The notes under the pieces: model-generated
Databases searched by the model: none
What the model saw: only the letters and a program-made list of their open reading frames with translations
Told to the model about the DNA's origin: nothing
Origin: Chthonomonadales bacterium
GTDB taxonomy: Bacteria > Armatimonadota > Chthonomonadetes > Chthonomonadales > CAJBBX01
Reading direction: 5' to 3'
DNA: 45,047 nt
Assembly (NCBI GenBank): GCA_012517255.1
Contig: JAAYVH010000064.1
Span: 1-45,047, forward strand
Shown here: piece by piece, positions 22,870 to 26,347 of the stretch
Layout of the letters: the number at the start of each line of letters is the position of its first letter
How positions within the stretch are numbered: position 1 is the stretch's first letter
Program-made: the position numbers and the translations under genes

Positions 22870-24636
22870 CTAGCCCGGCGGCTGGTTCTGGAGCCACGTG
22901 TCCCAGTCTGTCACGCGCGACAACGCCGTGCTGGAGTACGAGATCAGATACGATGCGGGACTCGGCAGGTACACGGCCAGACCGTGGGAGTTGGGGTGCA
23001 GGTTGCCGTGGGCTTCGGCAATGACAGCGCTCGCGACTGCCTCCTGCAATCGGGATGCGGCCGTCTGCAGAGCCGGCGTCGTCACGCCTGTACGCACTAG
23101 CTCCGCATAATGCCACAGATCCTTGTTGTCGCGGTAGAGGTAGGACTCCGCGTTCTGTCGGGCGCTGATGAGCGCAGCGGCATTTTCGGCGCCGTAGAAC
23201 TGCAGCGACTTCGCGAAGGCATCAAGGCGCTCGGCCACCGTCTGCATGCGCGATAGGTCCACGGCAGACTGCGTGATGTTGCTGAACGGGCCGTAACTCT
23301 CCACGGTCCGGTTAACGATCTGGGTCGCGAACTGCTCCGGCGTCATCGTCGGCGACGCCGCCAGGTCCTTCAAGAACGCATCATAGACGTAACCCTCCCC
23401 CGGAGGGCTTTCCTCGGAGCCGACCATGAGCTTGGCCATGTCGCGGACTTCGTAGGCCACCTCTGTCATCTGCATCAGCGAGGCATCGAAGATGAGCAGG
23501 TCCATCTTGGGGGATGTGTTCAGAGCTTGCGGAAGCTCCCAGGTCTGGATCTCGTTGCCCGTCGAATCGTCGATGGAAACCGACCGGACAGCCCGTCCGG
23601 CGGCCCGCGTACTGCGCCACCCTGCGCCGTGATCCCATATCACGAGGGCATACCTGTCGGCCGGATACCGCTGCTGCGTCCAGCGGATGAACGCATTCAG
23701 CTCGCGCCAGTCGCCCATATCAACGTTGGGTCCCATCTCCTGCACGAGCTGAGAGCCGATCGTGCTGGTGTTCTGATCGCGGGTGATGTAGTAGCGCCTC
23801 GTGCCAATCCACGCGGGGTTGCCGCATGTCGTGCAGTTGGCCTGCTTCCACTGAACGACGATATTGAGATCGGCGGACGAGCCGACTTTTTCCATCTGAT
23901 TGACATTCAGCGGCCCGAACTGCTGAAGATCGTTCGCGGCGTTGATGAACACCATGAACGTCCACTTGGCGCGCGTCGTGCGTGATAGCGGCAGACTGAG
24001 CGCCACGGACTGTCCGTTCAGTCGGGTGATCTCCAGCGTTGCGTCGGCCCGCAAGACCGTGACCTTGCCGACCGTATCGCCGGACGCCGAAGACAGCGCT
24101 CCGGTGCCGCTCACCGTGACCGCCGACGCACCGTTAACCGTGGATGTGTTCACCCACAGCGCCCCGTGCCCGCTGGCATCCAGGGTCAGAAGAGCCGCAT
24201 CGCCGCCCTCATCGTGCAGGTAGGTGCCAATGAGGTCCATCGGCGTCGCCGTGCCCTGCGGAGCTGCATGCGCAGTTACACTGAAGAGCGTGGAGCCCGA
24301 GCGGCGCACAACGCACGTGATCGCGTCGCCCGATGCCGAGGCGTTGCCCTCGAACTGAAGCAGCCCGTCCGGCGTCTGAGCGAAGAACTGATCGTTCGGA
24401 CCGAACGCGCCCTGCGCGCCTGCCCATGACGGGATCGAAGAGGCGTCGCGCACTATCAGGGTAAATCGACCGACGGTATCCACGCTGACATAGAGCGCCC
24501 GATCAGGCCCCTCAGCGCTGAAGGAACGTCCCCTGTATCCCGCGGACTTGCCGCCGCCGCCGCACCCGACAAGCGTCGCTGCAACAAGGGAGACGAGCAG
24601 GCAGACGACCACCGACCGACGTCGGTATGACTTCAT
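22870..24636 (-). CDS. clostripain-family (C11) lipoprotein with Cys-to-Ser active site
   Basis: A 588-residue predicted lipoprotein. The start is MKSYRRRS at 24636, with GGTGGAG just upstream; the signal ends in lipobox LVGC with lipidated C25. Residues about 30-250 are a beta-rich region, then the C11 domain begins at WTFMVFINAANDLQQFG. The catalytic His lies in WDHGAGW (H336). The segment that normally reads DACLM reads FDASLMQMTEVAYEV, so S386 replaces the nucleophilic Cys. Other family features are intact (GSEESPPGEGYVYD, HGLAVYLP). It is therefore either a pseudoprotease or a Ser-dependent variant. It should sit on a membrane facing the periplasm. Confidence 0.88.
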   Translation of the reverse strand: MKSYRRRSVVVCLLVSLVAATLVGCGGGGKSAGYRGRSFSAEGPDRALYVSVDTVGRFTLIVRDASSIPSWAGAQGAFGPNDQFFAQTPDGLLQFEGNASASGDAITCVVRRSGSTLFSVTAHAAPQGTATPMDLIGTYLHDEGGDAALLTLDASGHGALWVNTSTVNGASAVTVSGTGALSSASGDTVGKVTVLRADATLEITRLNGQSVALSLPLSRTTRAKWTFMVFINAANDLQQFGPLNVNQMEKVGSSADLNIVVQWKQANCTTCGNPAWIGTRRYYITRDQNTSTIGSQLVQEMGPNVDMGDWRELNAFIRWTQQRYPADRYALVIWDHGAGWRSTRAAGRAVRSVSIDDSTGNEIQTWELPQALNTSPKMDLLIFDASLMQMTEVAYEVRDMAKLMVGSEESPPGEGYVYDAFLKDLAASPTMTPEQFATQIVNRTVESYGPFSNITQSAVDLSRMQTVAERLDAFAKSLQFYGAENAAALISARQNAESYLYRDNKDLWHYAELVRTGVTTPALQTAASRLQEAVASAVIAEAHGNLHPNSHGLAVYLPSPASYLISYSSTALSRVTDWDTWLQNQPPG

Positions 24637-24746
24637 GGGCTCCACCTCATCCAAGCTAATGCCGACTCGCGGCAACGCGGATCGGCTGCCACGCGAACAG
24701 TGCTCATACCGGCGCCAGAACCGGAACCGTTCCCGCGACATGAGCG

Positions 24747-24787: not shown

Positions 24788-26347
24788 CTACTGCAGCGAC
24801 AGGCGCTGTAGAGCCGCCGAAGCCACCTTCTTGGTTTCCGGATCGCCGTTTGCGCTCAGTTGCTTCAAAGCTTCAAGAGCGTTCTGTGACTTGTTGCGTG
24901 CCAGGGACTCCACGGCCCATTTGCCGGCTGCAGGCTGGCTGGTGGCGATGCTCAGCACATCAGGCACGGACTCCGCCCCCTGCTTGGCAAGCGCCACGGC
25001 AGCGAGGAACCCCGTACCGGCGGGCCCTGCAAGCATACGAACCAGTGAAGGACGTGCGGGTGCGCCGATTCGCGACAGTGCGTCTGCGCATGCCGCGGCA
25101 ACAGCCCCCTCGCGATCGTTCATACCAGCGGCCAGCGCGGGTACGGCTGGCCCGTTCCTGGGAAATCCGAGCGCGCGAGCGGCCTCGGTGCGCACTTCGA
25201 CCGCTGGGTCACGAAGCGCCGGCAGCAAGGCCGCGTTCACGGAAGGCGTCGCAATGGCCCCCAATGCCTCGATCGCCCGTATGCGTGTGCGTGCTGCCGG
25301 GTCGCCTATGGCGCGGGTCAGCGCCGGGATGGCCGGCTGTCCGGCGTGCGCAAGTCCGTCAACTGCTGCCACCTGGACCTTGAGATCGTCGTCGCTCAGA
25401 GCCTTGACGAGCGTGGCTATGGCAGTCGGCGTGCCTATGCGGCCGAGGCCGACGGCAGCCTGTGCACGAGCCTCGTTGTCATCGTCCTTGTTGTTGATCG
25501 CCTCGGTCAGCGCGGCCTCGCCAGACGGATGAGCTATCAGCGCAATGGCGCCGATGGCGACGCGCCGCACCTGGGCGCTCCGCTTGTGCATCGCGTCAAC
25601 GAGTTGCGGCACCGGCGTCGGGCTGCCGACCTTGCCCAGGGCCTCGGCGGCGCCCGAACAGACGCCGTCATCGGCGTCGGCAAGGAGCGGGAGCAACGCC
25701 TTCACACACTCCTCTCGGCGCGAGGCCAATGCGCCCAGCACATCGCCGCCCGGTCCCCGTGCGGCAGCATTGGCCTTCATCCCCTCCACAACCTTGGGGA
25801 CGATCTGATCAGCCACCGAGCCGTTGCGCATGGCAAGGGCATCCCGCAAGACGTTCGGGTCGGCGTCTGGAAGGGCACGCTGGAGCAGCTTCATCGCCAC
25901 ATCCTGATCGTCTTGCCCCAGGATCTGCAGCAAGGCAATGCACACCTTGCGCACATTGCTGTCGCCGTCCGCCGTACCCGTCACGATTCCCTGAAGGTTA
26001 TCGGCTGATTTGGTGCCGATCCGCACAAGCGCGAGGGCAATGCGATCACGCACGGGCCTGTCCGGATCCTTCAGAAAGGCGACGGCTTGCGTGACAGCCT
26101 CCTTCTCGCCCCAGTCTTCGAGCGCCTGAACGATGCGGATGCGTCGTGCTACGCTCTCGCCCGTGATGGCGTCCATGAACTGCTCCATCTTGACCAGTTC
26201 CTTGGCAGCCGCGACGCGGGCCTTGCTGTCGTTCCCCGCCATGGAGTTCACCAGGAAGGCCATATGACGGCTGTGTCGGACTGCTAGCCCGACCACCACA
26301 GCGACGATGGCCACAAAGATGGCATAGTTCAGGAACTTTCGATTCAT
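24788..26347 (-). CDS. membrane-anchored HEAT-repeat protein
   Basis: A 519-residue protein. Residues 6-24 (LNYAIFVAIVAVVVGLAVR) form a signal anchor. The rest is a solenoid of about a dozen HEAT/PBS-lyase-like repeats of about 30-38 residues, each with a pattern such as AVPALAAGMNDREGAVAAA or DPAVEVRTEAARALGF. Such solenoids serve as scaffolds for protein contacts and have no catalytic residues. The ATG has GAGGGGG about 8 bases upstream. It lies 67 bases after the PP2C phosphatase gene on the same strand, so it may scaffold substrates or partners of that enzyme; this is inference. Confidence 0.88.
   Translation of the reverse strand: MNRKFLNYAIFVAIVAVVVGLAVRHSRHMAFLVNSMAGNDSKARVAAAKELVKMEQFMDAITGESVARRIRIVQALEDWGEKEAVTQAVAFLKDPDRPVRDRIALALVRIGTKSADNLQGIVTGTADGDSNVRKVCIALLQILGQDDQDVAMKLLQRALPDADPNVLRDALAMRNGSVADQIVPKVVEGMKANAAARGPGGDVLGALASRREECVKALLPLLADADDGVCSGAAEALGKVGSPTPVPQLVDAMHKRSAQVRRVAIGAIALIAHPSGEAALTEAINNKDDDNEARAQAAVGLGRIGTPTAIATLVKALSDDDLKVQVAAVDGLAHAGQPAIPALTRAIGDPAARTRIRAIEALGAIATPSVNAALLPALRDPAVEVRTEAARALGFPRNGPAVPALAAGMNDREGAVAAACADALSRIGAPARPSLVRMLAGPAGTGFLAAVALAKQGAESVPDVLSIATSQPAAGKWAVESLARNKSQNALEALKQLSANGDPETKKVASAALQRLSLQ

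Follow-up and report, generated by a model that had tools for sequence, protein, structure and literature searches.

A clostripain-family lipoprotein with serine at the catalytic cysteine position, and its Ser and Cys relatives across Armatimonadota

Clan CD, which includes the caspases, legumain, separase and clostripain, is classed as holding cysteine peptidases only, and we know of no serine peptidase assigned to it. The closest described relatives of the protein reported here belong to family C11. Clostripain of C. histolyticum (MEROPS C11; structure 9cip) shares with it the fold, the His-Gly pair, the S1 Asp, both activation-site arginines (R181/R190, equivalent to R341/R351) and secretion, but differs in its nucleophile, Cys231 in place of Ser386, and in its pocket loop (SSPVVW rather than SEESPP), while the predicted lipid anchor and the N-terminal beta domains belong to the Armatimonadota protein. 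In PmC11 of Parabacteroides merdae (3uws/4yec), His133, Asp177 and Lys147 have counterparts and the cleaved chain starts at the equivalent of R351/S352, yet the nucleophile is Cys179 and the loop reads SPTETMAD against SEESPPGE. The residue roles used throughout are those established for known C11 enzymes (PMC4850288, PMC11296011).

Serine at the nucleophile position is already described in another family of the clan, C14, where Trypanosoma MCA1/MCA4 and the cyanobacterial YS/YN pseudo-orthocaspases carry Ser (or Asn) there, the pseudo-orthocaspases with a preserved acidic pocket. These Ser-bearing metacaspases and orthocaspases have been described as pseudoenzymes that have mostly lost His too, and TbMCA4 is a functional pseudopeptidase, described as inactive and cut in trans by MCA3 (PMC6426788, PMC8283722, PMC6657590). 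The combination HS is absent from the 18 dyads listed in PMC8283722, which has TbMC1 as YS, whereas PMC6426788 reports HS for it. In the proteins analyzed here, in contrast to MCA1/MCA4 and the pseudo-orthocaspases, His is invariant and Ser and Cys have exchanged repeatedly. In the literature searched, no paper combines clostripain with Armatimonadetes.

The C11 lipoprotein gene and its neighbourhood

The gene lies on the minus strand of the window, the whole 45,047-nucleotide stretch of Chthonomonadales DNA that was analyzed. Residue numbers start from the ATG at 24636; a GTG at 24645, three codons upstream, is a possible alternative start, and numbering from it (P0001) runs 3 higher. The features are as follows.

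22870..24636 (-): C11 (clostripain-family) lipoprotein gene, 588 aa from ATG 24636; open reading frame, PF03415 and 9cip structure match
24562..24564 (-): putative lipobox Cys, LVG/C GGGG, after an N-terminal hydrophobic helix; from the sequence and the aligned position in relatives of family f1
23974..24534 (-): N-terminal all-beta region with two beta domains; AlphaFold2 model
22891..23970 (-): C11 catalytic domain; PF03415 match, AlphaFold2 model and structure match
23629..23631 (-): His336 (P0001 H339), catalytic position, equivalent to clostripain His176 and PmC11 His133; 9cip alignment, invariant in Ser and Cys forms of the tree set
23614..23616 (-): Arg341 (P0001 R344), five after His, equivalent to clostripain activation site Arg181; 9cip alignment
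23584..23586 (-): Arg351 (P0001 R354), P1 position of activation cleavage, equivalent to clostripain Arg190 and PmC11 Lys147; alignment and cleaved chains
23485..23487 (-): Asp384 (P0001 D387), S1 pocket for basic residues, equivalent to PmC11 Asp177 and clostripain Asp229; alignment, role from PMC4850288
23479..23481 (-): Ser386 (P0001 S389), codon TCG, at the catalytic Cys position; sequence
23392..23418 (-): pocket loop SEESPPGEG, in which Ser410-Pro411 (P0001 413-414) covary with the nucleophile; column comparison
24788..26347 (-): HEAT-repeat protein with an N-terminal hydrophobic helix, upstream neighbour of the C11 gene, which it adjoins in several f1 genera

Membership in C11 is clear from both profile and structure. 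Pfam Peptidase_C11 (PF03415) matches the open reading frame with an E-value of 7e-48 and 164.5-166 bits against a cut-off of 25.8. The AlphaFold2 model has a mean pLDDT of 91.7, and its residues 224-591 (P0001) superpose on clostripain 9cip with Z 40.9 and an rmsd of 2.3 Å over 348 residues at 24% identity; the next structure matches are other C11 structures. Fold and homology, the His-Gly pair, the S1 Asp two residues before the nucleophile and a basic activation residue are all present, and the one departure is the catalytic Cys of the Ala-Cys motif, whose aligned residue is Ser (TCG). On the minus strand, positions 23490-23467 read TTC GAT GCC TCG CTG ATG CAG ATG, or FDASLMQM, within IFDASLMQM. 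The preliminary description, which placed TCG (S386) at 23481-23479 where Cys is expected and held His (WDHGAGW, H336) and the remaining signature to be intact, is correct on both counts.

The hydrophobic N-terminus followed by LVG/CGGGG indicates a lipoprotein. The N-terminal beta region is present in family f1 and is variable or missing elsewhere; its first domain distantly resembles the fHbp/TbpB barrel in structure comparison (Z about 10, 6% identity). Several f1 genera keep the gene order PP2C, HEAT, C11, small protein, M15 peptidase, 158-aa protein, HAD and OTC, a block that is not kept in genome G003 or in genus g7. It is possible, as a guess, that the HEAT-repeat protein is a partner of the C11 lipoprotein. 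In genus g7 the sole C11 protein (L017/L019; genomes G009, G007) is a shorter Cys form that lacks the N-terminal beta domains and is encoded outside the f1 block. Synteny is unusable as proof that this Cys form is a replacement, since the block is also broken in G003.

Serine and cysteine forms across the phylum

Of 61 related genomes, 50 contain PF03415. A profile scan extended the relatives to 211 of 291 genomes of the phylum, and a scan of species genomes contributed another 80 named loci, which belong to Armatimonadota, Elusimicrobiota and unnamed bacteria. Across 183 distinct cores, the motif triplet is DAC in 79, DAS in 62, DCS in 27 and DSS in 8, with 7 others. The set of 137 cores used for the tree comprises 97 Ser forms, 39 Cys forms and one Asp, the latter in a copy that has lost His. 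The preliminary description had proposed aligning C11 proteins of Armatimonadota at this position and had offered 'a rare Ser variant of C11' as one reading; a Ser variant it is, but it is not rare, with Ser the prevailing residue in the alignment (97/137) and the common state across Armatimonadota, in about 20 family-level groups. The FDAS motif occurs in all orthologues of family f1 except those of genus g7, as well as in members of f2, f3, f6 and f10. Cys forms within Armatimonadota are those of f8, f16, f19 and f22 and parts of f1, f10, f12, f13, f14 and f17.

All Elusimicrobiota C11 copies that were read have Cys. For one Elusimicrobiota genome, its phylum was scanned for DNA encoding D-A-Ser-L-M-Q/E-M: the form with a TCN serine was absent from 248 genomes and the AGY form from 60, and the form with Cys turned up 28 times, in 5 of 60 genomes. 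Three genomes (G291, G293 and G295; the Elusimicrobiota loci L060 and L064 and locus L092 of an unnamed bacterium) hold 9 to 13 C11 matches each, some in tandem, and the motifs read there are all Cys.

As an account of Ser386, a sequencing error or a recent point loss of Cys in this genome is, for practical purposes, ruled out. The same TCG codon is found in a same-genus genome from another assembly (L027/L031), which excludes a read error, and Ser occurs in independent assemblies, in about 20 family-level groups and with both TCN and AGY codons. The preliminary description would have taken relatives with Cys as a sign of such a loss or error. This fails here: Ser is found in 10 of 12 genomes of f1, and the relatives that have Cys represent separate switches in the phylogeny.

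The tree of the 137 cores was built without the motif columns and requires at least 8-9 Ser/Cys changes at the nucleophile position. A single Ser clade is rejected (AU p 7e-60, likelihood gap 370; the group was named after the data had been seen). Since the Ser forms are not one clade, the exchange must have happened repeatedly. Cys L205 is sister to Ser L004 with support 100, Cys L206/L207 group with L197 (support 97), Cys L180 is nested within the AGY group of f14, and Cys L017/L019 stand beside the f1 Ser group (support 79). The Ser-for-Cys variant is confirmed, at the level of sequence, as a phylum-wide, repeatedly evolved and old set in Armatimonadota.

The residue preceding the nucleophile has switched between Ala, Cys and Ser 16 times on the same tree, while at the nucleophile position itself Ala, Gly and Thr never occur in the tree set, which apart from the one Asp holds only Ser and Cys. 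We read this contrast between a free neighbour and a Ser/Cys-only site as apparent selection for a hydroxyl or thiol group as such. The DCS variants (27/183 cores, including L012, L013, L021, L045 and L135) carry Cys in the place just before the Ser, where Cys, Ala and Ser alternate across the tree. The shifted Cys was considered as their nucleophile and rejected, as this position with its frequent swaps looks like one for a small residue.

Retained active-site residues and a coupled pocket loop

The rest of the site is retained in the Ser forms of the tree set. His is present in 97/97 Ser forms and 39/39 Cys forms, the S1 Asp in 100% of Ser forms, and the activation position (clostripain Arg190/PmC11 Lys147) is held by Arg or Lys in 98% of them and in all Cys forms; Arg at position 341 is found in 77% of Ser forms versus 15% of Cys forms. 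Two observations align Arg351 with the activation site: phmmer pairs AVR/SVSIDDS with clostripain LNR/AICWDDS, and in the structure comparison model residue 355 (P0001), which directly follows Arg351, is where the alignment begins for the cleaved chains 3uws_B and 5dyn_B (residue 148) and 5l20_B, which come from PmC11 and two Bacteroides enzymes and were modelled separately.

Aside from the nucleophile itself, the two columns of the domain that discriminate best between Ser and Cys forms are Pro411 (95/97 Ser forms vs 1/39 Cys forms) and Ser410 (97/97 vs 4/39). They lie in a loop whose end coincides with PmC11 Asp207, a residue of the S1 pocket. When these columns were left out of tree building, Pro411 went with Ser in 5.7 of 6 independent pairs on average (median p 0.03) and Ser410 in 4.7 of 6 (p 0.06); these p values are nominal, with six pairs and a column picked as the best of about 370.

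Three copies from family f17 (L209, L210 and L218; genomes G057 and G044) show another pattern, having lost His (replaced by R, T and P), the nucleophile (D, G and G) and the loop, with motifs RG/DSD, TG/DAG and PG/DTG, and in L209 the activation segment as well. They are probably true pseudopeptidases, judging by these residues, and their genomes hold further C11 copies. Because they drop His and nucleophile together, real loss of function in this family looks unlike the Ser forms.

Candidate functions of the Ser forms

We favour, at a probability of roughly 55%, the reading that the Ser forms are a lineage of zymogen-type Arg/Lys-specific hydrolases with a Ser-His active site. The gene product is a surface or periplasmic lipoprotein whose clostripain-type (C11, clan CD) domain carries Ser386 for the catalytic Cys. 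Cleavage after the activation residue Arg351, beside the active site, would free a site that binds Arg or Lys in the acidic S1 pocket (Asp384), His336 would activate Ser386 to cut the peptide, and the re-shaped Ser-Pro loop by the pocket may tune the site for a hydroxyl nucleophile. In this scheme cleavage, the role of Ser as nucleophile and the physiological substrate are inferred. Several points count against a Ser-His hydrolase: no third catalytic residue was identified in the lipoprotein, the Ser-bearing relatives among the caspases (TbMCA4, pseudo-orthocaspases) are inactive or presumed to be, and viability of T. brucei was not restored by an engineered Cys-to-Ser form (C136S) of its C11 protein PNT1 (PMC4850289).

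That non-functional PNT1 variant is in keeping with a conserved pseudopeptidase, in which the Ser forms would bind Arg/Lys peptides or proteins as a receptor or scaffold, with Ser, His and loop kept for binding and no cutting. TbMCA4 and the pseudo-orthocaspases with their acidic pockets offer precedents within the clan, Arg351 could occupy the S1 pocket as a built-in ligand, and the loop coupling and kept activation Arg could suit a binding role too. We nevertheless hold this reading to be the less probable one. The double loss of the dyad seen in YS and YN proteins, the commonest pattern of clan CD pseudopeptidases, is not what is found here, with His in every Ser form; the only exchange is between Ser and Cys, either of which is able to be a nucleophile; and the genome of the window, estimated to be 100% complete, has a single PF03415 copy and thus no active C11 paralogue to regulate. 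A role as a decoy for such a paralogue is rejected on the same ground. As to the alternatives posed in the preliminary description, a peptidase-like binding protein or a Ser variant of C11, the evidence leans toward a working Ser-His site rather than binding alone.

It is also conceivable, and in our view unlikely, that the Ser forms run another reaction on a similar site, as an esterase, an amidase or an enzyme of acyl transfer or ligation. With its pocket loop altered, a Ser-His site could act preferentially on esters or in transfer, and some clan CD enzymes are ligases, such as butelase, a distant structural match of the model. However, the likelier targets, judging by the S1 Asp and the activation Arg, are basic peptides, in line with other C11 proteins.

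If the Ser-His hydrolase reading holds, the tolerated Cys/Ser exchange with its coupled loop would be a natural experiment on nucleophile switching in a protease fold, comparable to the serine and cysteine members of clan PA. We would give even odds that this is a clan CD peptidase family in which Ser has repeatedly replaced Cys as the working nucleophile with a matching loop change, which would make its members the first serine peptidases of the clan and provide natural Cys/Ser sister pairs. If instead the Ser forms are inactive, they would be an unusually well-conserved, phylum-wide set of pseudopeptidases that automated annotation keeps naming cysteine proteases.
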